A DNA stretch of 64,000 bases from Actinacidiphila bryophytorum (lineage in GTDB: Bacteria; Actinomycetota; Actinomycetes; Streptomycetales; Streptomycetaceae), in the NCBI RefSeq assembly GCF_016916835.1, contig NZ_JAFFIX010000014.1:62001-126000 (forward strand), given 5' to 3'. Below, piece after piece: positions 4,257 through 58,925 of the stretch (its first letter is position 1; each line of letters begins with the position of its first letter). Below the pieces are notes generated by a model. That model did not search any database. It saw nothing but the letters and a program-made list of their open reading frames with translations, and was not told where the DNA came from. The position numbers and the translations under genes were made by a program.

Positions 4257-4316
4257 ATGGGCTTGACAGCCCATATCTGTCTCGTGTTCACTGCCTGTAG
4301 TGGGCTGGGAAGCCCA
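4257..4316. promoter_or_regulatory. Pair of TetR-type operators in divergent promoter
   Basis: Two copies of the same dyad, TGGGCT-N4-AGCCCA, lie at 4258-4273 (extended to 7 base pairs at 4257-4274) and at 4301-4316. The first overlaps a TTGACA -35-like element at 4263-4268, a classic repression layout. Identical half-sites and spacing in both copies make a dedicated regulator very likely, and the flanking TetR gene is the obvious one. Confidence 0.8.
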
Positions 4317-4362
4317 AAAAGCCCGGTGGACCCGCCGGGCACGAGAGGTACGGAGGCACCCC

Positions 4363-27401: not shown

Positions 27402-27862
27402 CGCGTGACTCCATGCGTTCTTGCAGGGGTCGACCCGTGTACGGATCTGGGGCGACGGTGAATGCACGTGCAATCACCGGGAGTTATTAGGCGAGGCATG
27501 TTCAAGCCATGTCAACGATCACGTACCGTGATGTTACATGACCGTGTGTCAGCGGTGTGAGCTGAACTACTCGCGAACGGACGGGAGTTGGTGGGGGTTT
27601 CTGTGGGAATACGGTGTGAACCCCGTGGTGGGCCAGGCCGGTTGACGCACCGGTAAGCCCCCTGTTTCCCAGCTGTCCCTCTCGGGGCGTGAACACGTCA
27701 CGGCGGCAAGCCGCCAGGGGTCCGCATTGACCGGCGGATCGTGCCGGTTGGAACTTTGTGCTGGTCAGTCTGCTTCCGCGCGTCCCAGCGCTCTGCGTAC
27801 ATCCCCCCGTGCCCCACCGATCAGCCGTGAGCCTCACCTGTCGTCACTTTCTGGAGTCATCT
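27402..27862. other. Divergent promoter region of the two S53 genes
   Basis: The 461-base region must carry both promoters. It contains one clear dyad (27518-27532, listed separately) on the paralogue A side. Both genes show the same start context, GGAGTCA then a TTG start codon. I see no gene in it. Confidence 0.6.
27518..27532. promoter_or_regulatory. Dyad in the S53 divergent promoter region
   Basis: ATCACG-TAC-CGTGAT is a perfect 6-base inverted repeat about 120 bases upstream of the paralogue A start. It could bind a regulator; the LuxR-type gene at 32207-33235 is a possible but unproven candidate. Confidence 0.4.
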
Positions 27863-30800
27863 TTGCGAGCCCAACGCTCCTCCGCGGGCCGAGCGCGCAT
27901 GCTGCGGCGCATAGCTGCCGCTGCCGTCCTCGCCGTCCTCGCGGTCCTGCTGCCCCAGCAGGCACTCGCCGCTCCGCCGCCGGCCACCGCCACCGGTAAG
28001 CCGACCGCCGAACCGGCCTGCGGAACGCCGAAACCCGGCCACTTCACGTGCTTCACGCTCCGCCGCACCGACCACACCGCCGCGCTCGGCGTGAAGCGCG
28101 ACGCCGCCGGGGCCGCCCTGGCGCCGGACGGCTACGCGCCCGCCGACCTGCGGTCGGCCTACGACCTGCCGGCCGACGGCGGAGCCGGCGCGACGATCGC
28201 GATCGTCGATGCCTACGACAACCCGAACGCCGAGTCCGACCTCGCGATCTACCGCCGGCAGTACGGCCTTCCGGCCTGCACGACCGACAACGGCTGCTTC
28301 CGCAAGGCCGATGAGCACGGCGGCGCCGCCTATCCCGCGGCGGACGAGGGCTGGGCCGCCGAGATCTCGCTGGACCTGGACATGGTCTCGGCCATCGCGC
28401 CGCAGGCCCACATCCTGCTGGTCGAGGCCGACGCGACGACGTCCGACGACCTGGGCACCGCGGTGAACACGGCCGTGTCCCTCGGCGCGAAGTACGTCTC
28501 CAACTCCTGGGGCGCGTACTACGACAGCACCGACAACCTGGCCTACGACGAGGCGTACTTCAACCACCCCGGCGTCGCGGTGGTCTTCAGTTCCGGCGAC
28601 GACGGCTACGGCGTCAGTTACCCGGCGTCATCGCCTTACGTCACGTCGGTCGGTGGCACCTCGCTGGTCCGCGACGGCAGCGCCCGCGGCTGGGGCGAAT
28701 CCGTCTGGAACGGCGTGACCTACAACGCCGACGGACCGCACTGGGGCGCCACCGGCTCGGGCTGCTCGGACGTGGAACCCAAGCCGCCCTTCCAGTCCGG
28801 CGTCGACTGCGCCGGGCGCTCGGTCGCCGACGTCAGCGCGGTCGCCGACCCGGCCACCGGCGTGGCGGTCTACAACACCTTCTCCGACGGCGGCTGGAAC
28901 GTCTACGGCGGCACGTCCGCGTCGGCGCCGATCATCGCCGGCGTGTACGCGCTGGCCGGCACGCCGGTCGAGGGCACCTACCCGGCCGCGTACCCGTACC
29001 AGCAGCCGGGCGCGCTCAACGACGTGACACGCGGCGACGACGCCAGCTGCTCCGACAGCGCGCTGTGCGGTTACGGCCCGGTGCCGGACTGCACACCTGC
29101 GTTCACCTGCGCCGCGCAGCCCGGCTACGACGGCCCGACCGGCCTCGGCACGCCCGACGGAGCGGCCGCCTTCAAGCCCGGCCCGCACGGCAGCGTCAGC
29201 GGCACCGTGACCGACGCGGCCACGGGGGCGGCGGTATCCGGCGCGGAGATCAGCCTCGGCGACTACCGGGCGACCGCCGACGCCCAGGGCCGCTACCGGC
29301 TCGACATCCCGGCGGGCTCCTACCCGCTGAGCATCTCGGCGTTCGGGTATGCGGACAAGGACCTGGGCCAGGTGCGCGTCGACGACGGCGCGGCGCTCAC
29401 CGAGGACGCGGGCCTGGTGGCCGTGCCCTCACAGACGATCTCCGGAACGGTCAAGGACGGCGGGCAGCACGGCTGGGGCCTGTACGCCAAGCTCAGCGTG
29501 GACGGCGTGCCCGGCACGGTGTTCACCGACCCGGCCACCGGCCGCTACTCGCTGCGGGTACCGATGAACCGGACCTACACCCTGCACGCCACCTCGCTCT
29601 ATCCCGGCTACCAGCCGGCCGACGCCACCGTCGCCGTGGGCGCCGGCCCCGACACCGTCGACCTCGCCCTGCCGGTCAAGGCCACGGGCACGCTCCCGCC
29701 CGGCTACCGGAAGGACTACCTCGGCGGCGGCCTGGAGTCCTTCGCCACCTCCGCGACCCCCGGCGGCTGGACGGTCAAGAACAACACCGCCGCCGGCGGC
29801 TGGCAGTTCGACGACCCGCTGAACCGGGGCAACCAGACCGGCGCCACCGGCCGCTTCGCCGAGGTCGACGACTACGCGCTGGGCTGGTCACCCGCCGACA
29901 CCGAACTCATCAGCCCCGCCTACGACTTCAGCGCGCAGACCAGGCCCGAGCTGCAGTTCGAGACCGCTCTGCCCTCGCTGTACCGGCTGGGCGACCTGAC
30001 CGCCGACGTCGACGCCAGCACCGACGGCGGCGCCACGTGGACCACGCTGTGGCACCACACCGACATCATCGGCGGCCCCTCGCACCAGGAGGTGTCGCTG
30101 GACGCCTACGCCGGGAAGTCCTCGGTGCGGCTGCGTTTCCACTTCACCGGCTCGCTCACCGGCATCTGGCAGATCGACGACGTGGCCGTGGGCACCCCGA
30201 CCCTGGTCACCCGGCCCGGCGGGCTGGTGGTGGGCCGGGTCACCGACGCCAACACCGGTGCCGGCGTGCTCGGCGCGACGGTCAGCGGCGTCGCGGTCCC
30301 GTCCGACTCCGGCCGGAGCGTGGCCTCGCCCGGCGACCCGGCCGTCGGCGACGGCCTGTACTGGCTGTTCTCCGGCCGGACCGGCAAGCAGCAGTTCACC
30401 GCGGGCCTGCCGGGCTTCGGCTACCCGGCGGTCACCGCCAAGGCCGACGTGCGGCCCGGCGCGGTCACCTCGGCCGACTTCGCACTGCACCCCGCGCAAC
30501 TCCAGTACAGCGTCTCCGCGGTGAGCGCGAACGTGGCCTGGGCGGACAGCAGGACCGTCGACGTCAAGGTGCGCAACACCGGCGGCTCGCCCGCCACCTT
30601 CTCGCTGGGCGAGCAGAACCTGGCAGGGCCGAAGTCCGGCGCGGCCGGTCCCGCGGCACGCAGGACACCCACGGCACTGACGCCCGACACCCTGCTCGAC
30701 ACCGCGCCGGCGGCGACCTCCTCGTCGGCCCCCGCCGCGCCGGACGACCAGGCCTGGCAGCCGCTCGCCGACCTGCCCGCCGGCTCCTTCGGCGGCGTCG

Positions 30801-32098
30801 CCGCCGTGGACCACGGCACGCTCTACGCAGGTCTGGGCGAGTCGCCGGGCGGTGTATGGAGCGGCTCCTTCGGTTCCTACGACGCGGCGGCGGGCGGGTG
30901 GAAGACGCTGGCCGCCCCCACGACCAAGCGCTTCGCCCCCGCCTACGGCTTCATCCGCGGCAAGCTGTACGTCACCAGCGGGCGCGACGCGGCGGGCAAC
31001 CCGATCCCGGGCAGCGAGGTCTACGACCCGGCGACCGACACCTGGTCCCAGATCGCCGACGTGCCCACCGGGTACGGGGCCTCGGGCTCGGCCGTTGCCG
31101 GCGACAAGCTGTACGTCATCGGCGGCTGCGTCCAGTTCACCTGCGGCTCCAACGACGTGCAGGTCTACAACCCGGCGACCGACACCTGGTCGGCGGGTGC
31201 GCCCTACCCGGAGCCGATCTCCTTCCCGGCGTGCGGCACCGCCGACGGGGTCGTCTACTGCTCGGGAGGGGTGTACCAGCCCGACGGCCAGGCCCCGCAG
31301 GACACGGTCCACACCTACGCGCTCGACCCCTCCGGCACCTCCTGGCGCCGGGTCGCCGACGCGCCCACCGACGTGTGGGGCGCCACCGGCACCGCCGCCG
31401 GCGGCAGGCTGCTGGTGGGCGGCGGCGCGCAGGTGAGCACAGGCGCCCTCACCAACGAGGCCCGCGCCTACGACCCGGCCACCGACTCCTGGTCGGCGTT
31501 GCCGAACCTGGCCGAGCCGGTGCTCGACGCCCAGTCCGCGCCGGGCTGGTACGCGATCGGCGGGACCAACGCGTACAACGTCCCGCAGGCGTCGGTCCAC
31601 AAGCTGGCCGGCTACGACCAGCCGCACGCCGACGTGCCGTGGCTCACCCCGTCGGCGACGAAGCTGACGGTCAAGGGCGGCGGCCAGGTCACGGTGCGGT
31701 TGACCCTGGACGCCGGGGCGATGACCTCGGCGGACGCGGGCACCCACCGGGCCGCCCTGGTCGTCGACAGCGACACCCCGTACGGTTCGGTCTCGCTGCC
31801 GGTCTCCATGACGGTGGTCCCGCCCGCCGGTTGGGGACTGCTGAGCGGCACGGTGACCGGCCCGCTCGCCGACGGAACGAACGCGCCGTTGGCGGGTGCG
31901 GTGGTCGAGGTCGACTCCAAGAACGGCGACGTGTCCCTCACCACGGGCCGCGACGGCAGCTACGCACTGTGGCTGCCGGCCAGGAACAACCCGCTCACGG
32001 TCATCGTGGCCGCGACCGGCTACCGCCCCGCGACCCGCACCGTGCGCGTCGTCAAGGACGGTGCGGTGACGGCAGACTTCGCCCTGCTGCGCCAGTAG
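27863..32098 (+). CDS. Giant secreted S53 (sedolisin) peptidase with regulatory-like and Kelch domains, paralogue B
   Basis: A 1411-residue protein collinear with paralogue A. It has a signal peptide (about 1-37, LAVLAVLLPQQALAA) and an S53 domain with Glu167 and Asp171 (AEISLDLDMVS), SSGDDGYG and nucleophile Ser352 (GGTSASAP). Carboxypeptidase-regulatory-like domains (GTVTDAATGAAVSGAEI; ISGTVKDGGQHG), a jelly-roll (WQIDDVAVG), Kelch repeats (YDPATDTWSQIAD, YNPATDTWSAG) and a terminal domain ending NNPLTVIVAATGYRPATRTV follow, almost as in A. TTG 27863 matches A's start; ATG 27899, which would still leave a signal peptide, is the alternative. Secreted, probably acid-active endopeptidase. Confidence 0.88.
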   Translation: MRAQRSSAGRARMLRRIAAAAVLAVLAVLLPQQALAAPPPATATGKPTAEPACGTPKPGHFTCFTLRRTDHTAALGVKRDAAGAALAPDGYAPADLRSAYDLPADGGAGATIAIVDAYDNPNAESDLAIYRRQYGLPACTTDNGCFRKADEHGGAAYPAADEGWAAEISLDLDMVSAIAPQAHILLVEADATTSDDLGTAVNTAVSLGAKYVSNSWGAYYDSTDNLAYDEAYFNHPGVAVVFSSGDDGYGVSYPASSPYVTSVGGTSLVRDGSARGWGESVWNGVTYNADGPHWGATGSGCSDVEPKPPFQSGVDCAGRSVADVSAVADPATGVAVYNTFSDGGWNVYGGTSASAPIIAGVYALAGTPVEGTYPAAYPYQQPGALNDVTRGDDASCSDSALCGYGPVPDCTPAFTCAAQPGYDGPTGLGTPDGAAAFKPGPHGSVSGTVTDAATGAAVSGAEISLGDYRATADAQGRYRLDIPAGSYPLSISAFGYADKDLGQVRVDDGAALTEDAGLVAVPSQTISGTVKDGGQHGWGLYAKLSVDGVPGTVFTDPATGRYSLRVPMNRTYTLHATSLYPGYQPADATVAVGAGPDTVDLALPVKATGTLPPGYRKDYLGGGLESFATSATPGGWTVKNNTAAGGWQFDDPLNRGNQTGATGRFAEVDDYALGWSPADTELISPAYDFSAQTRPELQFETALPSLYRLGDLTADVDASTDGGATWTTLWHHTDIIGGPSHQEVSLDAYAGKSSVRLRFHFTGSLTGIWQIDDVAVGTPTLVTRPGGLVVGRVTDANTGAGVLGATVSGVAVPSDSGRSVASPGDPAVGDGLYWLFSGRTGKQQFTAGLPGFGYPAVTAKADVRPGAVTSADFALHPAQLQYSVSAVSANVAWADSRTVDVKVRNTGGSPATFSLGEQNLAGPKSGAAGPAARRTPTALTPDTLLDTAPAATSSSAPAAPDDQAWQPLADLPAGSFGGVAAVDHGTLYAGLGESPGGVWSGSFGSYDAAAGGWKTLAAPTTKRFAPAYGFIRGKLYVTSGRDAAGNPIPGSEVYDPATDTWSQIADVPTGYGASGSAVAGDKLYVIGGCVQFTCGSNDVQVYNPATDTWSAGAPYPEPISFPACGTADGVVYCSGGVYQPDGQAPQDTVHTYALDPSGTSWRRVADAPTDVWGATGTAAGGRLLVGGGAQVSTGALTNEARAYDPATDSWSALPNLAEPVLDAQSAPGWYAIGGTNAYNVPQASVHKLAGYDQPHADVPWLTPSATKLTVKGGGQVTVRLTLDAGAMTSADAGTHRAALVVDSDTPYGSVSLPVSMTVVPPAGWGLLSGTVTGPLADGTNAPLAGAVVEVDSKNGDVSLTTGRDGSYALWLPARNNPLTVIVAATGYRPATRTVRVVKDGAVTADFALLRQ

Positions 32099-32206: not shown

Positions 32207-33235
32207 TCAGCGGTCCGGTCCCCGCCCGTCAGCGCGGGGGGCGCCCGTCGGCGCTTCCGGAAGCCACCAGCCGCGGCTGGCGGCGAGCACCCCCGCCTGG
32301 AAACGGCTGGCGGCTCCGAGCCGGGTGAGCAGCGCCTGCACCCTGCGCTGCACCGTGCGGTGCCCGATGCCGAGCTGGCGTGCGATGGTCTCGTCCGGCA
32401 TCCCCATGGCCAGCATCGAGATGATCCGCCGCTCCTCGTCGTTGACGAACTCGTCTTCGCCGACCGGCGCGATGCGTCCCGGCATGTACGGCTGCGCTTG
32501 AGCCCAGAGCGACTCGAACAGCGAGGACAAGGCATCGAGCAGCGCCGAGGGGTGGACCAGGATGCATGCGTCGAGCACCTGCGGGGTGGCCATCAGCGGG
32601 ATCAGCGCCGCCTGGTCGTCGGCGATGATCAGCTTCATCGGCGCCTCCGGAACGAAACGTACCTCTTCACCTGCTGCGATGTCCTCCTCCGCCCGCTCCA
32701 TCGCTCCGGGGATGTTGAGGCTGTCGCGGGCGTGGATGAACCGGCTGCGCACGCCGCGACTGGTGATCACGGACGCGGAGTTGACGCGTGCGCCGTCGCG
32801 GGCCTCGGCGTAGGGCGGCGCGTCGATGCCGCGGATCTCCCTTTCGGCGCGGTTGAACAGCTGCTGCCCACAGCGGGCGACGCCGTCACGGCCGTTGATG
32901 ACCTGGATCAGCGAGGCCGAGTCGCGATCCCGGCGCGCGTCGCGGTGTCGCTCGGTCAGAAGCTCGGTCAGGGCGCGCACCCGGTGGATGTCCCGCTCCC
33001 TGGCCAGCAGGAGCACCTCGAGGGCGTGCCCGGGCGGCAGCGCCGTGTAGCACGCCGGGCTGCCGGGCAGCCGGGAGACCAGTCCACCGTCCTCCAACCG
33101 GAGCATGGCCGCGGCGACCGCCTCGGGCTCGATGCCGGTGCGGTGGGCCAACTCCTCGATGGGCAGGGGCAGGTTGTCGACGAGGACGAAATACAGCGTT
33201 TCGGTCGGCTGATCCAGACCGAGAACTTCGAGCAT
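32207..33235 (-). CDS. LuxR-type regulator with TrmB-like N-terminus
   Basis: A 342-residue regulator. The N-terminal 65 residues resemble a TrmB winged helix (LPIEELAHRTGIEPEAVAAAMLRLEDGGLVSRLPGS). The middle part is a phospholipase-D-like sensor fold (RSRFIHARDSLNIPGAMERAE). The C-terminal about 65 residues form a LuxR/NarL-type helix-turn-helix (EERRIISMLAMGMPDETIARQLGIGHRTVQRRVQAL). This TrmB-LuxR architecture is frequent in streptomycetes, often next to secreted peptidase or specialised-metabolite genes. ATG 33235 follows GGAGG by five bases. It converges with peptidase paralogue B and may control the S53 pair, but no direct evidence shows this. Confidence 0.85.
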   Translation of the reverse strand: MLEVLGLDQPTETLYFVLVDNLPLPIEELAHRTGIEPEAVAAAMLRLEDGGLVSRLPGSPACYTALPPGHALEVLLLARERDIHRVRALTELLTERHRDARRDRDSASLIQVINGRDGVARCGQQLFNRAEREIRGIDAPPYAEARDGARVNSASVITSRGVRSRFIHARDSLNIPGAMERAEEDIAAGEEVRFVPEAPMKLIIADDQAALIPLMATPQVLDACILVHPSALLDALSSLFESLWAQAQPYMPGRIAPVGEDEFVNDEERRIISMLAMGMPDETIARQLGIGHRTVQRRVQALLTRLGAASRFQAGVLAASRGWWLPEAPTGAPRADGRGPDR

Positions 33236-33485
33236 GGCCACCTCCGAACGAACGGTAGCCCAAGGAGACCGTTTGGTTGAAGGTGAGACCTTCGGACCCG
33301 AAGCACCACCTCCCAGGCGGGGGTCAGTGGTCGTAGGCGCCGCCATGGGCGAACCGCGATCGTGTCAGGTCTTCCGGGTGGCGGTGCGGAGGCGTCCGAA
33401 GGGGTGAAGCCCGCTTCAAGAACGTGTAAATGGCGGCCGGGGGCGTATGAGCCGAGGAGCGTGGGGCAGATGGTGGCCGGTGTGA

Positions 33486-33770
33486 CGTCGGCGGACTGAA
33501 AGCGGTGAGGCATGCTCCTGTTTCGCAGGCGGCTACGTCAATCCCAGCAACGTCGTCGGGTACCTGAACTACGGAGGCTCGTCCAACTGGTTCCTCTGCA
33601 ACTGGACCGCCGGGCGCACCTACTCCGCCGACGGCTACACCTCACGCGACTACGCCGCCCCCGTCGCCGACAACGGCATGAAAGGCTGGGCATCAGCGGC
33701 TTTCGCCGGCACTCAAAACTACTGGTACGGGCCGGCTGAATGCTTGGAAGGCTACGCCGGCTGGCCCTGA
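33486..33770 (+). pseudogene. 3' fragment of a secreted-protein gene, no start codon
   Basis: The frame ending at TGA 33770 encodes protein-like sequence rich in aromatic residues, Gly and Ser: GGYVNPSNVVGYLNYGGSS, NWTAGRTYSADGYTSRDYAA and DNGMKGWASAAFAGTQNYWY. It contains several cysteines. Composition looks like the C-terminal part of a small secreted beta-rich protein. No in-frame start exists after the stop at 33483-33485, so the gene's 5' part seems to have been lost. I do not recognise the family. Confidence 0.55.
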
Positions 33771-34670
33771 ACCGCCCTGAAGCGGAGTCTTCGTGACGGC
33801 CCGCCGGCTTCTTCGGCGGACCGTGGCGGGCCGGCCGGTGGCCCGGCTGTCGTGTCGGGTGCCGGCGCCGGATTCCACGGTTCCGGCGCGGGCGCGTCGG
33901 CACCCCGTCGACGTCCACGACCACCTGCCCGTTCGCGTCGCTTCGCAGGTCGGATGCCGTTTCCGCAGCGATGCGGGGGCGGCTGAGCGCGCCGCTGCGC
34001 AGGCCGGCGAAGAGGAACGCCGCTACGCGCCGTACCGCCGCGGGGTCGAGATTGATGTCGGCGCCCGTGCCGCCGGTGTGCACACGTGTGGCTTCGACGG
34101 TGTCCTCGGCGTCCGTGGCTCCGCTGTGCGGGGTCGGGCACGGAAAACCTCGCGCCCGCGACGTCCGGTGGAAAGCAGTATCGGCGGCTCAAAGTTAGAC
34201 GAGCCCTTTCCCCCTGGCAACCGGCGCTCAACGGGAGGTTGTCCGAGACGGGTCCGCGGGTCACGGGTACCAGGCGCCGCAACCGGTGCCGCGGGACGCG
34301 CGTAGATCCCGGCCGGGCGGGGCAAGGCGGGAGACGGTTGACACCCCCGCGGAGCTGTCGCTAAGAAGCCGTATGAACGTTCCGACCACGGGTGCTCCGG
34401 GCCGGTGCAGTGCTGCCCGGGCCGGCGATCGACATCGTAGGCATGCGGTGAACCGACGGGCCGTCAGCCGCAGACCGAGCGGGGCGGCCTGTCCTGCGGT
34501 CGGTGCACGGGCACCAGCCGGTTCGGCGCGAACGTAACGTCCGCGGGTACGCGTGCGCCAGGGGGAGAAGGGAGGTTGTCGACCCACCGACCGAAGGCTT
34601 TGCCCGGTTCTTGAGCGCATGCGTCCGGCCGTCCGGACGGCTGCGCTCACAAGCGCCAAGAAGGGGCCAC
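33771..34670. other. 900-base region without a convincing gene, left border of the biosynthetic cluster
   Basis: Only weak frames occur. The best, on the minus strand near 33870-34083, reads GADINLDPAAVRRVAAFLFAGL with sensible composition but no good start, and turns Arg-rich; it may be a gene remnant. The interval must also hold the promoter of the StrR-like regulator. Together with the fragment just upstream it looks like a decayed junction between conserved chromosome and the accessory cluster. Confidence 0.45.
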
Positions 34671-35789
34671 GTGTCTTTATTACCGAACGGCGACGGCTCT
34701 TGGGATTCCCTCTCCGAGAGACCCTCACGCCGCCGTACACAGGTAGTTCCCATCAGTTCCCTGCTGCCCGCCGACTCGCCGCGCCTGGCGGGGGAGACGG
34801 CGGAGCACGCCCGCGCACTGGCGGAGTCGCAGGCGCCGCTGCCGCCCATCGTCGTCCACCGCGCCACGATGCGGGTGGTGGACGGCACGCACCGGCTGCT
34901 GGCCGCGGTCCTGCGCGGCGACGAGTACATCGAGGCCAGGCTGGTGGACGGCACGGACGAGGACATCTTCGTCCTCGCCGTCAAGCTCAACGCCGAGCAC
35001 GGTCTGCCGCTGTCCCGCCAGGACCGTACGGCGGCGGCGGTCCGCATCGCTGAGAGCCATCCGCACTGGTCGGACCGCCGGATCGCCTCGGTGACGGGTC
35101 TGTCGCCGGGCGCGGTGGGAAGTCTGCGCACCCGGGCCGCCGTGGCCATGCCCCAGTTCGGGCTGCGGACAGGACTGGACGGCCGCAACCGCCCGGTGAA
35201 CGGCGCCGCCGGCCGCATCGCGGCCAGCAAGGCGATCGCGGAGAGCCCGGACGCCCCGCTGCGGGAGATCGCCAGACGAGCCGGCGTCGCCCTCGCCACG
35301 GCCCGGGACGTCCGCAACCGCATGCGGCTGGGGCAGGACCCCGTGCCGCCCAAACTCCGACCTGCCGCCGGGCAGCTGGAGCAGGACGCGGCGCTGGAGC
35401 CTGCCGCGCCCGCGCCGCTCGAGCCCGCCCGACCGGAACCTGCCCGGCAGGAGGCCGCCCGACCGGAGCCGGCAGCTGCCGGCATGCTGTCCGAGAAGGT
35501 GCTGGCCCGCATGCGCCGAGACCCGAGCCTGCGCATGTCGCAGGCCGGCCGGGAACTGCTGCACCTGCTCGCCTCCCACCTGCTCACCGACGCGCAGCGG
35601 CAGGACCTGGCGGCGGGCGTTCCCGCACACCGGGCGGCCGACGTCGCCAACGCGGCGCGGCTGTGCGCCGACCGCTGGCTGCAGTTCGCCAGCGACCTCG
35701 AAGTACGGCGGGCCGAGGGCGCAGAGCGGTCGCCGGCGCGCGGTGAGGGTGACCTCGCTGTCGCCGGGGTGCTGAAGTCGCGGGTGTGA
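34671..35789 (+). CDS. StrR/NovG-type ParB-like cluster regulator with two TTA codons
   Basis: A 372-residue regulator. The N-terminal half is a ParB-like domain: VVPISSLLPADSPRL, LPPIVVHRATMRVVDGTHRLLAA, DIFVLAVKLNAEHGLPLSRQDR. A helix-turn-helix follows at about 133-156 (WSDRRIASVTGLSPGAVGSLRTRA), then a Pro/Ala/Glu-rich linker and a C-terminal helical region. This matches the StrR-NovG family of cluster-situated activators that bind GTTC-type dyads, and an exact such dyad lies at 37416-37444. Start GTG 34671 follows AAGGGG. Codons 3 and 4 are both TTA. No downstream start precedes the ParB domain, so translation should need the bldA leucyl-tRNA. It converges with the CCR gene. Confidence 0.88.
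   Translation: MSLLPNGDGSWDSLSERPSRRRTQVVPISSLLPADSPRLAGETAEHARALAESQAPLPPIVVHRATMRVVDGTHRLLAAVLRGDEYIEARLVDGTDEDIFVLAVKLNAEHGLPLSRQDRTAAAVRIAESHPHWSDRRIASVTGLSPGAVGSLRTRAAVAMPQFGLRTGLDGRNRPVNGAAGRIAASKAIAESPDAPLREIARRAGVALATARDVRNRMRLGQDPVPPKLRPAAGQLEQDAALEPAAPAPLEPARPEPARQEAARPEPAAAGMLSEKVLARMRRDPSLRMSQAGRELLHLLASHLLTDAQRQDLAAGVPAHRAADVANAARLCADRWLQFASDLEVRRAEGAERSPARGEGDLAVAGVLKSRV
34677..34682 (+). other. Two consecutive TTA leucine codons in the regulator
   Basis: The third and fourth codons of the regulator are TTA TTA. TTA is the rarest codon in streptomycetes and is read by the developmentally controlled bldA tRNA, so expression of this activator, and hence the cluster, is probably tied to the switch to sporulation and stationary phase. 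Confidence 0.85.
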
Positions 35790-35849
35790 CAAGGTAGCTG
35801 CGGCGGGCCGGCCGCCGTACCGCTGCGGCGGCGGTGGTCGGCCCATGCG

Positions 35850-37202
35850 CTATAGCGCCGCCGATACGGGCTTGCCGGTGCGGAAGCGGTTGATGGCCGG
35901 CTCGTGGTCGGCCCGCAGTTCCGGGTCGGTGACGCCCAGCCCCTCCCGCGGCGCCAGGCACAGCACGCCGACCTTGCCCTGGTGGCGGCCCTGGTGGACG
36001 GCTTCCACGGCGTCCGCGGTGCGCTCAAGCGGCACCACTGCCGACAAGGTTGGGTGCACCTGCCCCTTGGCGACCAGCCGGTTGGCCGCCCACGCCTCAC
36101 GGTAGTTCGCGAAGTGCGTCCCGATGATCCGCTTGAGGTGCATCCACAGGTAGCGGTTGTCGAAGGTGTGCTCGTAGCCCGACGTGGAGGCGCAGCTCAC
36201 GATCGTGCCGCCGCGGCGGGCCACGTACACGCTGGCACCGAAGGTCTCCCGCCCCGGGTGCTCGAACACGATGTCCGGGTCCTCGCCGCCGGTCAGCTCC
36301 CGTACCCGCGCCCCGAACCGCTTCCACTCCCGCTGGTCCTGGGTGTGCTCGTCCTTCCAGAACCGGTAGCCCTCCGCGGCCCGGTCGATGACCAGCGTCG
36401 CGCCCATCCGCCGGCACAGCTCCGCCTTCTGCGGGCTGGACACCACGCACACCGGGGTCGCCCCGCCGTTCAGCGCAAGTTGGGTGGCGTACGAGCCGAG
36501 ACCGCCGGTGGCGCCCCAGATCAGCACGGTGTCGCCCTGCTTCATGCGGGCGCCGTTGTCCGAGACCAACTGCCGGTAGGCGGTGGAGTTCACCAGCCCG
36601 GAGGCGGCGGCCTCCTCCCACGAGAGGTGCTCCGGCTTCGGCATGAGCTGATTGGCCTTCACCAGCGCGAGTTCGGCGAGCCCGCCGAAATTGGTCTCGA
36701 ATCCCCAGATCCGCTGCTCCGGGTCGAGCATCGTGTCCGCGTGGCCGTCGGGGTGGTGCAGCTCCACCGACAGGCAGTGCGCCACGACCGCCTCGCCCGG
36801 CTGCCAGCCGGCGACCCCGTCGCCGCAGCGCAGCACGACCCCGGACAGGTCCGAGCCCAGCACGTGGTAGGGCAGGTCGTGCCGGGCGGCCTGCGGTGAG
36901 GTCTTCCCGTACCGGGACAGGAAGCCGAAGGTCGGCAGCGGCTCGAAGATCGAGGACCACACCGTGTTGTAGTTGATGCCGCTGGCCATCACGGCGACCA
37001 GCACCTCGCCCGCGGCGGGCTGCGGTGTGGGGACCTCTTCCAGGTGCAGCGACCGGCGCGGGTCCTTGTCCCGGCCGGCCAGCCCGTCGAACATCGCCAC
37101 CTCGTCGGAGTGCAGCGTCACCCCCCGGTAGGACTCCGGCACCGGAAGCCGCCCCAGGTCGCCCGGTGCGCCCGCGAGGATCGCCTCAAGAATCTCCTGC
37201 AT
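35850..37202 (-). CDS. ccr: Crotonyl-CoA carboxylase/reductase (CCR), extender-unit supply
   Basis: A 450-residue medium-chain reductase of exact CCR length. Landmarks include SGINYNTVWSSIFEP, HVLGSDLSGVVLR, WGFETNFGGLAELALVK, the NADPH motif WGATGGLGSYATQL, FEHPGRETFGASV and YLWMHLKRIIGTHFANYREA. CCRs reductively carboxylate crotonyl-CoA or longer 2-enoyl-CoAs to ethylmalonyl- or alkylmalonyl-CoA, which polyketide synthases use as branched extender units. ATG 37202 is chosen over upstream starts because it gives the family's usual N-terminus (MQEILEAIL). It is divergent from the synthase row, sharing a promoter with an exact StrR-type operator, so it is almost certainly part of the cluster. 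Confidence 0.93.
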   Translation of the reverse strand: MQEILEAILAGAPGDLGRLPVPESYRGVTLHSDEVAMFDGLAGRDKDPRRSLHLEEVPTPQPAAGEVLVAVMASGINYNTVWSSIFEPLPTFGFLSRYGKTSPQAARHDLPYHVLGSDLSGVVLRCGDGVAGWQPGEAVVAHCLSVELHHPDGHADTMLDPEQRIWGFETNFGGLAELALVKANQLMPKPEHLSWEEAAASGLVNSTAYRQLVSDNGARMKQGDTVLIWGATGGLGSYATQLALNGGATPVCVVSSPQKAELCRRMGATLVIDRAAEGYRFWKDEHTQDQREWKRFGARVRELTGGEDPDIVFEHPGRETFGASVYVARRGGTIVSCASTSGYEHTFDNRYLWMHLKRIIGTHFANYREAWAANRLVAKGQVHPTLSAVVPLERTADAVEAVHQGRHQGKVGVLCLAPREGLGVTDPELRADHEPAINRFRTGKPVSAAL

Positions 37203-37415
37203 ATGTCCGGCTCTCTTTCCGGCCCGGTCCGCGAACAAACGGGACACGGGTAACGAGTGGTGTCGTTCACCAGGAGTAGAAAATGAAATCAGCCGCTCGG
37301 GGATGTCCGTTTCGCTGTCATCCTGCCGAATTGTGGGGGCGCGAGCGTGATTCATGCTGGCACCCGGCGACTGTGGCGTCCAGCCGTCACAGCCCGGCCA
37401 CCTGTGTCAAAGGAA

Positions 37416-37444
37416 GTTCAACTGTCCGGTCCGGTCAGTTGAAC
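37416..37444. promoter_or_regulatory. StrR/NovG-type operator controlling the biosynthetic cluster
   Basis: GTTCAACTG-N11-CAGTTGAAC is a perfect 9-base inverted repeat with an 11-base spacer. The published consensus for StrR and NovG is GTTCRACTG-N11-CRGTYGAAC; every position fits. It lies between ccr and the first synthase gene, 214 bases from the ccr start and 339 bases from the synthase start. The cluster's own StrR-type protein is the natural ligand. Confidence 0.92.
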
Positions 37445-37445
37445 A

Positions 37446-37467
37446 TGCCGACCGGCTCCGGTCGGCA
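37446..37467. promoter_or_regulatory. Second dyad beside the StrR-type operator
   Basis: A perfect 10-base inverted repeat, TGCCGACCGG-CT-CCGGTCGGCA, begins two bases after the StrR-type operator. The two-base centre suggests a DNA-binding dyad rather than a transcription terminator. The binding protein is unknown. Confidence 0.5.
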
Positions 37468-37782
37468 CGGCAGCGGATGGCGGCGCCTTGACGGACCGCA
37501 GGGCGTCGGGGAAGCTGAATCGCGAATGGCGGGAAACACCAGAGGAATCGGTAAACCTCAGGTAACACCGGATCGGTATTCGCGCACCGCCCCCGTGAAC
37601 GGTCGGCGGTGCGATCTCCTCGGCTGCGACAGCCGATTCCAGCAGCGAAGTTCGAGAACGATGTGCGGTAATCCACGACAGGCGTCCGGTGCCGCCGCGG
37701 TGAATTCGGTGGAAGAGCCGGGACATGTGCCTGTTCCGACGTGCACAGGCGCGCAGGTGTCGAGCACTGAGAGGACGGTCGG

Positions 37783-40700
37783 ATGCTGGGCCGCGATTCC
37801 GAATCGCTTGTCGACCATTTCCGTACGGTCTTCGGTAAGGATCCGGAGCAACAGATCTTCCGGTTCCTGGTGGACGGCGAGGGTGAGCCGCATGCCTTGA
37901 CCAACGCCGAGTTCGACCTGCGGGCCCGCACGATCGCCGCGGTGCTCCGGGAGCGCTTCCCGGCCGGGGAGCGGGCGCTGATCATGTGCCCGGCCGGCCT
38001 GGACTACGTGGTCTCCTTCTTCGCCTGCCTCTACGCCGACCTCGTCGCAGTGCCCGTCTACCCGCCCGACCCGGCCTTCCTGATGCGCACCCTGCCGCGG
38101 CTGACCGGGGTCATCGAGGACGCACTGCCGGCCGTCGTACTCGCGCCGGCCGAGACCACCGCACTGGCCGACCGTTTCGCCGAACTCGCCCCGGCGCTGC
38201 GGGACATCGCCTGGCTGGCCGTGGACGAACTCGACACCGCGGCCGCCGACGCCTGGCGCCACCCCGGCACGCGCCGCGACGACCTGGCCTTCCTCCAGTA
38301 CACCTCCGGCTCCACCAGCCGCCCCAAGGGGGTGATGGTCAGCCACGCCAACCTGCTGCACAACATCGGGGCCATCTTCCAGAGGGTGCTGCTGGGCGAG
38401 CGCGACCAGCACGTCGTGAGCTGGCTGCCGCCCTTCCACGACATGGGCCTGATCTTCGGGCTGCTCACCCCGCCCTACGCCGGCTTCCCCGTCACCTTCA
38501 TGTCGCCCTTCTCCTTCCTCAAGCGGCCGCTGCGCTGGCTGCGGGCGATCTCCGACGTCGGCGGCACCGCCAGCGCGGCTCCCAACTTCGCGTACGACCT
38601 CGCCGCCGCGAAGATCACCGAGGCCGAGCGGCAGACCCTCGACCTGAGCACCTGGCGACTGGCGGCCAACGGCGCGGAGCCGGTCCGGCCGCAGACGCTG
38701 GAGCACTTCACCCGCACGTTCGCCCCCAGCGGCTTCCGGCCCGCCATGCACGCCCCTTCGTACGGGCTGGCCGAGGGCACGCTGATGGTCTCCAGCGGCG
38801 ACCCGCTGTCCCCGCCCGCCGGCAGGAGGCTGCGGACGGCCGGGCTGCTGGCAGGCACCGCCGAGGACGCCGGGCCGGACGAGCCCGCGCGGACCCTGCT
38901 CAGCTGCGGCATGTCGGTGAACGACCAGCGGGTCGTCGCGGTGGACCCGCAGACCCGTCTTCTGCTGCCCGACGGCCGGGTCGGCGAGCTGTGGGTCGCC
39001 GGGCCCAGTGTCGCGCAGGGCTACTGGAGGCGCGAGCAGGAGACCGAGGAGACCTTCCGTGCCCGCCTGGCGGGCAGCGGCGACGGCCCCTTCCTCCGTA
39101 CCGGCGACCTCGGCTTCACCGACAGCGATCAGATCTACGTCACCGGCCGCATGAAGGACGTCATCATCGTCGCGGGCCGCAACCACTACCCGCAGGACAT
39201 CGAGCGCACCGTGGAGGGCGTCGGCAGCGGCCTGCGGCCCGGCTGCGGCGTGGCGGGGGTCCGGGAGATCGACGGCGAGGAACGTCTGATCGTCGTCCAG
39301 GAGTACCGCGGGGGCCGCGCGTCCGACGGACCGTCCCGGGTCGCCGCCGAGATCCGCGCCGAGGTCGCCCGCGAGCACGGCCTGCAGGTCTACATCGTGG
39401 TGCTCGCCCGCAGCGGCACCGTCCCCAAGACCTCCAGCGGCAAGCTCCAGCGGCGGGCCTGCCTTGACGCGGTCCTGGCCGGCACGCTGAACCCGCTGTA
39501 CGAGTGGCGGGCGGACGGCGGTGCGCCTTCTTCCCCGGACGGGGCCGCGGACGCCGGCGCGCGGGAGCCCGGTACGGCGCGCAGCGCCGCTGCCGCACCT
39601 GCCCTGGACGCCGCCGAGGTCGAGCTGTGGCTGCGCGGGGCGCTGGCCGCGGCAACCGGCGTGCAGCCGGAAGCCGTCGATCCCGGGCTGCCCTTCGCCG
39701 CGTACGGGCTGCGGTCGGTGGAGATGGTCACGATGGTCGGGGACCTCGAACGGCGCTTCGGGGCGACGCTCGCGTCCACCGTGGTCTGGGAGCACCCCAC
39801 TCCCGCCAAGCTCGCCCGGTACCTGGCCGGCGGCACCCCGGAGCAGGCGCCCGCCGACACGGTCACCCCGGCTCCCCCCGCCGTCACGGCGGTCACTGCG
39901 GCCGCCGCCCTCCGCGGCGTCCCCGGCACCCCCGACGCCCCGGGCCCCGCCGAACCCGTCGCCATCATCGGCATCGGCTGCCGCTTCCCCGGAGGTGTCA
40001 ACGGACCCGAGAGCTTCTGGCGGTTGCTGAGCGAGGGCAGGGACGCGGTGACCGAGGTGCCCGCCGAGCGGTGGGACGTGGACGAGTTCACCTCCGAGGA
40101 CCCGTCCGCCCCTGGGCGGACCAACAGCCGCTGGGGCGGATTCCTCGACGGCATCGACCAGTTCGATGCGGCCTTCTTCGGCATCCCACCGCAGGAAGCC
40201 GCCCGCATGGACCCCCAGCAGCGGCTGCTGGCCGAGGTCGCCTTCGAGGCGCTGGAGAACGCCGGGGTGCCCACCGGCGGGCTGGCCGGCTCGGCCACGG
40301 GCGTCTTCGTCGGCATCTCCACCTTCGAGTACGCAACCGAGCAGTTCCGCGATCTCGACGCCGTCGACCGCTACAGCGGCACCGGCGGCGCCCCGAGTAT
40401 CGCCGCCAACCGCCTGTCGTACCTGCTGGACCTGCGCGGCCCCAGCATGGCGCTGGACACCGCCTGCTCCTCCTCGCTGGTCGCGGTGCTCCAGGCGTGC
40501 GTGAGCCTGGAGCGCGGTGAGTGCGACCTGGCCCTGGCCGGCGGCGTCAACCTGGTGCTCACCCCGGCCTTCGCCATCAACTTCAGCAAAGCCGGCGTGA
40601 TGTCCGCCGACGGCCGCTGCAAGCCGTTCGACTCCCGCGCCGACGGATATGTGCGCTCCGAGGGCGCCGGGGTCGTCGTCCTCAAGCCGCTCAAGCGCGC

Positions 40701-43700
40701 GCTGGCGGACGGTGACCCGGTGTACGCGGTGATCCGCGGCGGCGCGGTCAACCAGGACGGCGCCAGCAACGGCCTCATGGCGCCCAACCCGCAGGCCCAG
40801 GAGGCGGTGCTGCGCGCAGCCCACCGCAGGGCCGGCGTGCGCTCCGCGGACATCGGGTACGTCGAGGCGCACGGCACCGGCACGATCCTCGGCGACCCGA
40901 TCGAGGCCAAGGCGCTCGGCGCGGTCCTCGGCGACGGCCGCGACCCCGCCGAGCCGTGCCTCATCGGCTCGGTGAAGTCCAACCTGGGCCACATGGAGGC
41001 CGCCGCCGGCATCGGCGGGCTGATCAAGACCGCGCTGGCGGTCCGCCACCGTACCGTGCCGGCCACCCTGCACTACCGCGAACCCAACCCGCACATCCCC
41101 TTCGACGACCTCGCGGTGCGGGTCGCGGACACCCTGCAGCCGTGGCCGGGCGCGGACGGCGCACCCGCGCTGGCCGGCGTCAGCTCCTTCGGCTTCGGTG
41201 GCACCAACGCCCACCTGGTGCTGGAACAGCCGCCCGCCCCGGCGGCCCCGCCGCGGAGCACGGACGGCGCCGTGCTGCTGACGGTCTCCGCACGCGACGA
41301 GCGGGCGCTGGGCGACCTCGCCGCGGCCTATGCCGGCAAGCTCGCCGCCCCCGGCCTGGACCTGTCCGCCTTCGCCTGCGCCGCCGCGGTCCGCCGCACC
41401 CACCACGAGCACCGGCTGGCCGTCACCGGCTCATCGGCCGGGGAACTGCGCGCCGCGCTGGGCGCGTTCGCCCGCGGTGAGGAGGCGGACGGCCTGTCCA
41501 GCGGGGTCCGGCGGGTGGGCTGGCGGCCCAGGACGGTGTTCGTCTTCTCCGGGCAGGGCCCGCGCTGGTGGCCCCTGGCCACCGACCTGCTCGACGGGGA
41601 GCCGGTCTTCCGTGCGGTTCTCGAACGCTGCGACGCGCTGCTGCGCCGCCGCGCCGACTGGTCCCTGATGGAGCAGCTCAACGCCGACCCCGCTGCTTCC
41701 CGGCTGCTGGACACCGCCGTCGGGCAGCCCGCACTGACCGCGGTGCAGATCGCGCTCGCCACCCTGTGGCGCTCCTGGGGCGTCGAGCCGGCCGCCGTCG
41801 TCGGCCACAGCGTCGGCGAGATCGCCGCCGCCCATGTGGCCGGGGCGCTCACCCTGGAGGACGCCCTCGTCGTCGCGCTGCACCGGGGTGTCGCCCTGCA
41901 CGCGGCCACGGGCAAGGGCCGTATGGCCGTCGCGGGAGTCACGCTGGACCGGGCGCGGGAGATCCTCGCCGAGCGCCCCCCGGGCGCGGTGTGGGTGGCC
42001 GCGGGCAACAGCCCGAACTCGACCGTCTTCTCCGGTGCGGGCCCCGACGTGGAGGCGCTGGCCAAGTCCCTGGAGGCCGACGGCGTCTACTGCCGGGTCC
42101 TGGAGTCGGTCGAATTCGCCTCGCACTGCCCGCTGATGGAGCCGGTCGCCCAGGAGCTGTGGCGTCTGCTGGCCGACCTGCGGCCGCGTACCGCCGCCCT
42201 GCCCATGGTCTCCACGGTCACCGGGCGGCCCGTGGACGGCGGCGGGCTCGACGCCGAGTACTGGGCGTCCAATCTCACCCAGCCGGTGCTGTTCGACGCC
42301 GCCGTGACCGCGCTCGCCGAGTCCGGCCACGACGTGTTCGTCGAGCTGTCGCCGCACCCGATGCTCACCGACGCCGTCACCGAGCGCCTGTCCTCGTACG
42401 GGCATACGGCCGCCGTCCACTCGCTGCGCCGCGACCAGCCCGGCCGCGCCGCCGTCCGCACCGAACTCGGCCGCCTCTACACCGCGGGCTGCCAGGTCGA
42501 CTGGACCCGGGTGTACGGGCCTGCCGGCCCGATGGCCGACCTGCCCACCTACCCCTGGCAGCGCTCCCGGCACTGGTTCGAGGAGAGCACCCGGCGCCGG
42601 CCGGTCGGGCGCCGTCGCGGCCACCCCGTGCTGCGCTCCCACGTGCGCTCGGCCCTCGCACCGCATGCCGCCCACTGGACCGCGCCGGTGGACCTGGCCG
42701 GATTCCCCTACCTGGCCGACCACCGGGTCGGCGGCGGCGCCGTCCTGCCCGCCGCTCTGGTGCTGGACGCGGCGCTGGCCGCCGCCCGCCTCCACCTGGG
42801 CGGCGGCGCCGTGCTCACCGACGTGGACCTCGGCCGGCTGACCGTCGTACCGGAGGAGGCCGACGACACCACACTGCAACTGGTGCTCGTCCCCGAGACC
42901 GAGGGCACCGGCTCGGTACGGGTCCACACCCGGGCAGGCGCCGACGACGACTGGACCGAGGCCGCCCGGGGCGCCTTCCGCCGCGCCCTGCCCGCCCCCG
43001 CCCCCGGCGCCGAGCCGCTGTCCGCGGCACGCGACCGGTGCACGACCGCAGTCGCGGCCGACGACCACTACGCCGTGCTGCACCGGTCCGGGCTGGAGTA
43101 CGGGCCCGCGTTCCAGGGTGTCGAAGAGCTGTGGCGCGGGCACGGCGAGGCGGTCGGCCGGCTTCGCGACCCTGCCGCCCTGACCGCAGCCCGCGGCGGG
43201 CACCTGGTCCACCCGGCCGTGCTCGACAGCGCCCTGCAGGTGCTCTCCGCCGCGCTCGGCACCCCCGAAGAGCCGCCCGCGACCTATCTGCCGGTGCGGG
43301 TGGGCGGCTTCACCCTCCACACCGACCGCGCCGAACCCCGCTGGGCGCATGCCTCGGTCACCGCACCCGAGCCGGGCGCCGCGGAGATCGCCGGCGCCTC
43401 GGTCGTGCTCTACGCCGAGGACGGCGCCGCCGTCGGCGAGATGACCGGGATCGCGTTGCGGCGCCTGGAGCGCGGCCAGGACGCCGACCCGGTCACCGGG
43501 TCCCTGTACGGCATCGACTGGCTGCCCGCCTCCGCCGAGCAGCCCGCGGCACAACCGCCCGGCAGCTGGCTGCTGTTCGCCGACGCCGGTGGGACCGGGG
43601 CAGCGCTCGCCACCGCACTGGGCGGCGCCGGCGGCAGCTGCGTGACCGCCACTGCCGGCGCCGCCTACCGGCAACTGGACGTCGGCCGCTACGAGCTGGA

Positions 43701-46472
43701 CCCGGCGCGGCGCGAGGACGTCGCCGCCCTGCTGGCCGACCTGGCCGCGGCCGGCACCCGGCTCGACGGGATCGTGCACGCCTGGGCGCTGGACGCCGAA
43801 CTCACCGACGACGGCGGCCCGCAGCAGTTGCCGGCCGCGCAGGACGCCGCCACCGGCCCCGTACTGCACCTGGTGCAGGAGCTCGCCCGGGCCGGGCAGG
43901 ATCCCGCGCCGCGACTGGTGCTGCTCACCCGCGGCGCCCAGCGGGCAGCGTCCGACGACACGTTGGCGCCCGGGCAGTCGCCGCTGTGGGGACTGGCCCG
44001 GGTGATCGGCCTGGAGCACACCGAACTGCGCCCCACCGTCGTGGACCTGGACCCCGCCCGTCCTGCGGGCGAAGCCGATTTGCTGCTGGCCGAGCTGCTG
44101 CGCCCCGGCGACGACGACCAGGTCGCGCTGCGCGGCGCCGAGCGGCTCACCCCGGCGCTCCAGCGCTGGACACCGCCCGCCACCACACCCCAAGCGCGGC
44201 CCGCCTGGACATTCGACGCCGGCCGCGACGGCAACCACCGGCTCCTGGCGGCCCGGCCCGGCAGCCTGGCGAGCGTGACGGCCACCTGGTGGCAGCGCAC
44301 CCCGCCCGGCCCCGGCCAGGTCGAGATCGAAGTCGCCGCCGCCGGAATCAACTTCAGCGATGTCCTCAAGGCGCTGGACAGCTACCCGGGCGCGCAGGGC
44401 GTCGTCCCGCTCGGCGCCGAATGCGCGGGCCGCGTCACCGCCGTGGGCGAGGGCGTCACCCGCCACGCGGTCGGCGACCGGGTGATCGCGGTCGGCGGCA
44501 GCTGCCTGGCGGCCTTCACCACGGTCAGCGAACACCTGGTCGCCCCCGCGCCTGCGTCCCTCGGTGAGGACGAGGCCGCGGCTGTGCCCATCGCCTTCCT
44601 CACCGCCGTCCACGCCCTGGAACGGCTGGCCCGGCTGCGCAGGGGCGAGAGTGTCCTGGTCCACTCCGCGACCGGCGGCGTGGGCCTGGCCGCCCTCCAG
44701 ATCGCCCGCCGCCGCGGCGCCCGCGTCTACGCCACCGCCGGCACCGAGGACAAGCGCGAACTCCTGCGCGGCCTCGGCGTGGAAGCCGCCATGGACTCGC
44801 GCACCCTCGCCTTCGCGGACGAGATCACCGAACGCACCGGCGGGCGCGGTGTCGACGTCGTCCTCAACTCCACCTCAGCCGAGGCACTGGCTCGCAGCCT
44901 GCGGCTGCTGGCGCCCGGCGGCCGCTTCGTGGAGATCGGCAAGCGGGACATCCACGGCAGCAGCCACATCGGCCTGGACTTCTTCAAGGACGGCCGCGCC
45001 TTCCTCGCGGTGGACCTGGAACGCACCATCCGTGAGGCGCCGGCGGACGTCGCGGACCTCTTCGCCGACGTCGTCGCGGGCTTCGAGCGCGGCGACTTCA
45101 CCGCCCTGCCCGTCACCGTCCACCCCTTCGGCGAGGCCCCCGCCGTCTTCGCCACCATGGCGCAGGCCCGGCACACCGGCAAGCTGGTGCTGCGCCCCGA
45201 GACGGGCGAGCGGATCACCACCGCGCCGGGCGCCGCCCCCGTACGGCCGGATGGGACGTATCTGATCACCGGCGGCCTCGGCGCCCTCGGCCTTGAGACG
45301 GCCCGCTACCTGGCCGACCAGGGCGCCCGGCACCTGGTCCTGGCGGGCCGCAGTGCGCCCTCGGCGGCAGCGGAACAGGCCCTCGCCGGACTGCGCGGCC
45401 GCGCCGAGGTCGCGGTGGTCGCCGCCGACGTGTCCGCACGCGAGGGCGTCGACGCCCTCCTGGACCGGATCGACGCGGTCATGCCGCCGCTGGCCGGGGT
45501 CGTGCACGCCGCCGGCATCCTGGACGACGGCATGCTGACCGGCCTCGACCGGGAGCGGTTCGGTACGGTCGCCGGCCCCAAGTCCGCCGCCGCCTGGCAC
45601 CTGCACCAGGCCACAGCGGAGCGCCCGCTGGACTTCTTCGTCCTGTACTCCTCTGCCGCCGCCGCACTCGGCTCGGCCAGCCAGGGCAGCTACGCCGCCG
45701 CCAGCGCCTTCCTCGACACGCTCGCCCACCACCGGCGTTCGCGCGGACTGCCCGCGCTGAGTATCGGCTGGGGCCCGTGGTCGCAGATCGGCCTGGCCGC
45801 CCGTCCCGACCGCGGCGGCGCGCTGGCCGCCCGCGGTATCGGGAGCATCAGTCCGCGCGACGGCATCGCGACCCTCGACCTGCTGCTGCGCGCCTGCCCC
45901 GCCCATGTGTGCGTGCTGCCGCTGGACCGGGACAAGCTGCGCGGCCACCTCGGCGGCGGCCTGCTGCGCACCCTGCTCGCGGACGCCGAGGCCGACCGCC
46001 CGCCGCTGGACGGGGTGCGACGCCGGATGCTCGCGGTCGAGCCGGGCCGCCGCCGCAGGGCGGTCCTGACCGAGCACTGCCGTGCTGCCGCCGCCCGGGT
46101 GGTCGGCATCGAGCCGGAGCGGATCGACACCAGCGCCCCCATCACGGGCCTGGGCTTCGACTCGCTGCTGTCCCTCGAACTGCGCAAGTCGCTGGAGTCC
46201 TCGCTGCGGGTGCAGCTCCCCTCGACCGTCACCTGGCGCTTCCCGACCATCGACGCCCTGGTGCCGTATCTGGCCGAGCGGATGGAGATCGAGCTGGAGC
46301 CCGGCCGGGCCGACGCGGCGGAGCCCGCCGAGGAGCCCGTCCGCGTGCCGGCCGCCGCTGCCGGGGCAGCTCAAGAGCCGGCGGACGCCCCCGACCTGGA
46401 CGCGATGTCCGCCGCCGAACTCGAAGCGCTGCTACTGGCCAGGACCCAGCAGATCAACGGAGAGGACCAGCG

Positions 46473-46476
<4 letters not shown>
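37783..46476 (+). CDS. Hybrid loading/PKS protein: FAAL-ACP-KS-AT-DH-ER-KR-ACP
   Basis: A 2897-residue megasynthase. A fatty acyl-AMP ligase (about 1-580; YTSGSTSRPKG, SWLPPFHDMGL) activates a fatty acid and loads it on ACP1 (Ser645, in LRS instead of DSL). KS (about 725-1152) has Cys895 in DTACSSS, EAHGTGT and KSNLGH. AT (about 1250-1565) has Ser1343 in GHSVGE and a FASH loop at 1445-1448, which is closer to methylmalonyl than malonyl types. DH (about 1610-1890) has His1647 in HxxxGxxxxP and DSALQ. ER (about 2150-2457), KR (about 2490-2670) and ACP2 (Ser2794) follow. It should add one fully reduced unit to a fatty starter. Its stop overlaps the next start by four bases. ATG 37783 has GAGAGGA upstream. 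Confidence 0.93.

Positions 46477-58925
<12,449 letters not shown>

Follow-up and report, generated by a model that had tools for sequence, protein, structure and literature searches.

The gene that we assign as the regulator of a PKS–NRPS cluster in Actinacidiphila bryophytorum opens with GTG TCT TTA TTA, followed by CCG, the first four codons occupying positions 34671–34682 of the 64,000-nucleotide stretch of DNA analysed here (the window). This arrangement raises the question of whether two UUA codons placed so early put the regulator under the control of bldA, and whether their doubling makes the brake stricter. The tandem TTA at codons 3 and 4 (34677–34682), pointed out in a preliminary description of the locus, was confirmed. 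Table 1 collects the features discussed below.

Table 1. Features of the regulator gene, its leader and the neighbouring cluster genes (positions in the window)
Feature	Position	Strand	Remarks
Predicted leader hairpin directly upstream of the Shine-Dalgarno-like sequence	34612..34649	+	Same place in 4/4 folds, limited covariation
Shine-Dalgarno-like AAGAAGGGG	34658..34666	+	Kept with small changes in 4/4 orthologues
Predicted StrR-like cluster regulator gene	34671..35789	+	372 aa, GTG start; ParB-like fold match and orthologues
TTA codon 3	34677..34679	+	Lineage-specific; 2/4 orthologues, window included
TTA codon 4	34680..34682	+	4/4 orthologues, window included
Crotonyl-CoA carboxylase/reductase gene (ccr)	35850..37202	-	Likely start 37202; ORF continues to 37355, extension looks non-coding
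Candidate site, perfect NovG-type inverted repeat GTTCAACTG-N11-CAGTTGAAC	37416..37444		Only perfect match in the genome
TTGACG, -35-like element upstream of the PKS gene	37488..37493	+	By eye in all four genomes
First PKS gene	37783..46476	+	AMP-ligase, ACP, KS, AT, DH, ER and KR domains
Single TTA codon in PKS gene	54895..54897	+	TTC (Phe) in 3 orthologues

Regulator homologues were searched for in 35 Actinacidiphila genomes (match at E 1e-10) and were found at 23 places in 15 of them, only 8 of these places, window included, holding at least one TTA codon. The close orthologues known, all within this genus, are those of genomes G004, G030 and G001, with 94%, 76% and 71% protein identity, respectively; every count out of four given here includes the window gene.

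The Shine-Dalgarno-like sequence ends 4 bases before the GTG codon at 34671. The reading frame is open further upstream in the window, with possible starts 56 and 20 codons before this GTG, and the orthologous frames of the three relatives are open upstream only from 19 or 20 codons. Since no upstream start is common to all four orthologues (a GTG 12 codons upstream is shared by G030 and G001) and the alignment of the four leaders contains a two-base gap separating two orthologue pairs, GTG 34671 is the likely start. An upstream start would in any case offer no escape from the codons under study, because it also reads both TTAs. On the downstream side, the next in-frame ATG, GTG or TTG of both the window and G004 is the ATG of codon 67, which falls within the ParB-like domain, so that the earlier statement that no alternative start precedes this domain holds for the window; in-frame TTG codons are present at codons 25–32 of the G001 and G030 orthologues.

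The preliminary description proposed to align orthologues in order to see whether both TTA codons are conserved, and the alignment separated the two. Specifically, codon 4 is TTA in all four genes, at protein identities down to 71%, whereas codon 3 reads TTA, TTA, GAA and GTA in the window, G004, G030 and G001, respectively. Loss of the TTA codons from all close orthologues, which that description counted as refuting its claim, is not what was found: the four genes carry 2, 2, 3 and 1 TTA codons, in the same order, and all eight lie within codons 3–31. The G030 gene (L003) has its three at codons 4, 25 and 31, the last two being absent from the other three orthologues. Thirty-two leucine columns are common to the four proteins and the codon is identical in 20 of them; codon 4 is the sole identical column with a codon other than CTG or CTC. 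Codons for shared amino acids differ by 29–37% between the two orthologue pairs. Because codon 4 has been kept as TTA in 4/4 genes despite this divergence, and because none of the five other leucine columns holding a rare leucine codon is kept in all four, the TTA at codon 4 looks selected. On the same alignment the doubling is lineage-specific, seen in the two closest relatives only, as codon 3 is TTA in just 2/4 genes.

How rare such a tandem is was assessed in a sample of 20 stretches (400 kb) of the window's genome, in which 244 genes were called by a GC3 heuristic. TTA accounts for 15 of 89,398 codons and for 15 of 8,825 leucine codons; 13 of the 244 genes have at least one TTA, two have two, none has a tandem, and TTATTA was not found on either strand of the sample. 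The early position of a TTA is not special in itself, since 7 of the 15 sample TTAs also fall at codon 31 or earlier in the (longest) ORFs called. By simple arithmetic, about 0.07 tandem TTA pairs are expected for a genome of this size. The 8.05-Mb assembly contains 17 occurrences of TTATTA and, judged by frame and composition, the regulator gene alone carries an in-frame, coding-like TTA–TTA, one contig-edge site not being judgeable upstream. Another of the 17 lies about 17 codons upstream of a start that, by eye, resembles that of a ferredoxin. Across the 35 Actinacidiphila genomes, the string RTG-NNN-TTATTA was found 25 times in 17 genomes, fewer than the 41 matches of its reversed control, and hence shows no enrichment by itself. 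When these matches were filtered for an ORF of >60 aa, coding composition and a Shine-Dalgarno sequence, which places ORFs of <60 aa outside the assessment, the window gene and the orthologue with 94% identity were the sole ones to pass; two further sites begin ORFs of 163 and 165 aa whose composition is atypical and for which the same test gave no Shine-Dalgarno sequence. In conclusion, the unusual feature of the tandem is its place at codons 3 and 4, not the string.

A bldA query sequence was used to search the genome of the window and returned one strong match, which ARAGORN identifies as a tRNA-Leu(UAA). Among the seven weaker matches examined there are two tRNA genes, both Leu(GAG). G004, G030 and G001 each contain a 96–98% match to the window tRNA, in every case Leu(UAA) by ARAGORN. 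Taken with the lack of any start in the window that bypasses the codons and with the TTA kept at codon 4 in 4/4 orthologues, this tRNA gene lends good support, at the level of sequence, to the claim that translation of the regulator would depend on bldA.

As for the regulator protein, it had no Pfam or NCBIfam family match above cut-off, and no ParB family match by sequence; a match to HTH_24 (E 0.028) fell below the cut-off of that family. The AF2 model, for which three sequences were used, is a weak one (mean pLDDT 56.9), its N-terminal and central stretches being better supported. When this model was compared with the PDB by Foldseek, six chains matched at E 0.001 or better, all of them ParB or Noc, with KorB lower. 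The top ParB/Noc match has an E of 1.9e-4 and a probability of 0.99, but TM-scores of 0.14/0.25 and an rmsd of 17.8 on this weak model; as the TM-scores are low, the comparison supports the domain type of a ParB-like N-terminal domain and not a close fit. In the same model, helices 178–191, 197–204 and 208–219 (block pLDDT 71–82 over 181–220) would fit a tri-helical HTH, and C-terminal helices are placed between 270 and 352, with a block pLDDT of at most 55.

A ParB-like N-terminal domain, a central HTH and a helical C-terminal part are the layout given for StrR-like regulators in PMC10886168, which mentions low model confidence for these proteins too. The predicted layout would resemble that of StrR, NovG, Bbr, Dbv4 and Tei15*. 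A Streptomyces globisporus C-1027 plasmid protein annotated as 'streptomycin biosynthesis operon regulator' has 39% identity over 94% of the query. The best plasmid relative reaches 55% identity. Both plasmid relatives examined (C-1027 and NBC_01431) are devoid of TTA, unlike the gene studied here and its orthologues, in which codon 4 is TTA and one lineage has the TTA doubled. By sequence and model together, the gene product is classed as StrR-like.

The regulator sits in a PKS–NRPS cluster common to four Actinacidiphila genomes. The ccr, PKS and NRPS genes rightward of it have matches in each of the three relatives; FabG and a thioesterase are matched in G004 and G001, and not in the G030 stretches fetched. 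In G030 (G030:C1:345409-351171; L043, L044) the cluster is rearranged, with the regulator divergent from the PKS operon. On the left-hand side, a LuxR/TrmB-type regulator (32207–33346) and the kelch genes were considered as cluster members and rejected, having no match at E 1e-15 in the relatives' stretches fetched. In addition, the gene at 4300–5277 has matches of 33–36% in these stretches, which we take for paralogues. Beside the cluster, the region 23262–32098 encodes two large divergent proteins (1403 and 1446 aa) with kelch and carboxypeptidase-regulatory-like repeats, unmatched in the relatives' stretches. A scan of 33300–37800 found no promoters or terminators, and 33300–38000 contained no Rfam families.

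The NovG-type box consensus, GTTCRACTG-N11-CRGTYGAAC, was used to look for a candidate operator. The perfect inverted repeat at 37416–37444, with ccr on one side and the first PKS gene on the other, is the genome's sole perfect match to it, and the window contains no further NovG-type site with up to 3 mismatches. Among the 35 genomes there are eight distinct perfect sites in seven genomes, and none in the reversed control (0/35). All seven genomes belong to the 15 with a regulator homologue and none to the 20 without; 8 of the 15 homologue-bearing genomes have no perfect box. Seven of the eight boxes have a homologue at most 20 kb away, whereas for the remaining one (G011:C1:8458410-8458438; L074) the nearest of the homologues listed is at a distance of about 130 kb. 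Both the biosynthetic-cluster setting and a box fitting the NovG consensus are points in which the regulator resembles StrR-like activators; no published StrR or NovG binding-site repeat matching the box string was found in the literature searched.

In all four orthologous clusters a perfect box stands beside ccr, one site per genome. In the rearranged G030 locus the genes on either side of it are ccr and those of the NRPS, and no box was seen at the promoter of the PKS genes. When one strand of the window and of seven cluster stretches was scanned with spacers of 9–13, the only other sites had 3–4 mismatches, for which the background is 8 sites per 400 kb at spacer 11. Since the single box is beside ccr in 4/4 clusters and the G030 PKS promoter is without one, direct control of ccr would be the firmest prediction from the sequence; the weakest would be control of the cluster in its entirety. 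The expectation that the codons act as a brake on the whole cluster is only partly supported, by one box next to ccr that in G030 is not at the PKS promoter.

From the codons and their conservation, the likely start, the tRNA gene, the box sequence, the ParB-like fold match and the shared cluster, all directly observed, we consider it probable that the gene encodes a bldA-gated StrR-like activator of the PKS–NRPS cluster. Specifically, we infer that, when the charged tRNA-Leu(UAA) produced by bldA is scarce, ribosomes starting at GTG 34671 would stall at UUA codons 3 and 4, and that a ribosome stalled there, overlying the start region, should block the next initiation as well. Once the bldA tRNA is available, the activator would be made and could bind the inverted repeat between the ccr and PKS genes. 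Codon 4 would act as the conserved gate, codon 3 being a lineage-specific addition that probably confers extra stringency. By analogy, it is plausible that a doubled UUA would make a stricter brake than a single one.

A more elaborate version would add the leader. The predicted hairpin ends 8 bases before the Shine-Dalgarno-like sequence and recurs in separate folds of the four leaders, whose folding z-scores are -2.2, -0.35, -1.0 and +1.1. Pairing is retained in 96.1% of cells versus 24–48% in slid versions; the covariation score of 0.346 was reached by 10 of 500 shuffles, but 163 of 500 reached the count of three pairs with both sides changed, and 104 of 500 that of the pair types. The stems still pair through some changes, and the spacing of the outer arms varies by eye. 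This behaviour is suggestive of an RNA rather than of a DNA operator, no more firmly than four sequences and mixed controls allow, and with these the hairpin was not upheld as a firm RNA element. It is quite unlikely, in our estimate, that the conserved UUA at codon 4, lineage-tuned extra UUAs and the upstream hairpin form a composite switch, in which the stalled ribosome would cover the start and shut off re-initiation, and the output would be steep, more than additive in bldA tRNA.

Other explanations of the early TTA codons have to be weighed against the bldA gate. They could have been kept chiefly for the sake of initiation, which an AT-rich and unstructured gene start favours, with codon 3 perhaps having no added regulatory role. 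Codons ending in A or T are indeed richer in the first 35 codons of all four genes (12, 13, 7 and 9 in the window, G004, G030 and G001, against 32/337, 32/327, 20/315 and 40/335 in the remainder), and most of the TTA TTA stretch is left unpaired in the window fold. Moreover, codon 3 is GAA or GTA in the distant pair, TTA being one base from the GTA of G001. However, the strict TTA at codon 4 in 4/4 genes goes beyond mere AT-richness, and only 15 of 8,825 leucine codons in the genome sample are TTA. For codon 3 an AT-rich start is a serious competing explanation, and overall a possible account that we hold to be less probable than not by some way. A gene acquired recently, or one adapted poorly, could carry such codons by chance, an account that we hold to be very improbable: 13 of the 244 sample genes have a TTA and so does a PKS gene of the cluster, at a non-conserved position, but the regulator gene has a GC3 of 0.88, all four orthologues lack TTA outside codons 3–31, and codon 4 is kept in all of them.

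The gate could also be leaky, UUA being misread when the bldA tRNA is missing, so that the codons merely delay or dampen the regulator. Both UUAs precede a pyrimidine, which is a leaky context, and a study of ccaR, by its title, reportedly concerns mistranslation in a bldA mutant. An adpA fusion, which contains a single UUA, kept about one fifteenth of its reporter activity when bldA was mutated in S. ghanaensis; moeE5, a structural gene that like the regulator has two UUAs, gave a silent reporter in the same mutant (PMC3814723). The EcoVIII endonuclease gene offers a further comparison: natural tandem rare AGG codons (16 and 17) near its start brake translation in E. coli, and changing either of them relieved the inhibition, so that a pair can be stricter than a single codon (PMC6456624). 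Unlike the UUA pair, these are arginine codons tested in E. coli, with no developmentally timed tRNA. We regard the leaky gate as rather unlikely and retain the bldA-gated activator as the preferred reading.

TTA-bearing cluster regulators are well known (among others, PMC2000904, PMC11836424 and PMC10786969), and the present one is therefore not a new kind of system. With ActII-ORF4, RedZ and PeuR, as these sources present them, it shares a cluster activator mRNA whose UUA ties production to bldA; these three are taken to belong to other protein families. PeuR is described with three scattered TTAs (codons 13, 52 and 74), in contrast to the tandem at codons 3 and 4. In the literature searched, no report was found of tandem, consecutive, adjacent or double TTA codons linked to bldA; two papers there mention two TTA codons along with bldA. 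Our best reading is that the regulator is a further bldA-gated cluster activator of the well-known type, to which a lineage-specific second UUA has been added.

It is still debated whether bldA serves as a genuine regulatory device or is mere wiring (PMC3814723). For rare codons, expression has been seen to change linearly with copy number (PMC4745014). The orthologous regulators, alike in other respects and belonging to one cluster, carry from one to three early UUAs and make up a natural test series, which could show whether the number and position of UUA codons set the strictness and timing of cluster activation. Recoding codons 3 and 4, or supplying the bldA tRNA together with the activator, would be a possible route to waking the cluster.

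Other TTA codons in the cluster are few. One, at codon 35 of the ccr ORF, was rejected as a coding feature: it sits in the upstream extension, Ccr most likely starting with MQEIL (37202). The TTA of this extension is also present in G004 and G030, and the G001 match begins after it. Setting the extension aside, the called cluster genes other than the regulator contain one TTA, that of the PKS gene at 54895, which may represent a second, window-specific bldA-dependent step.
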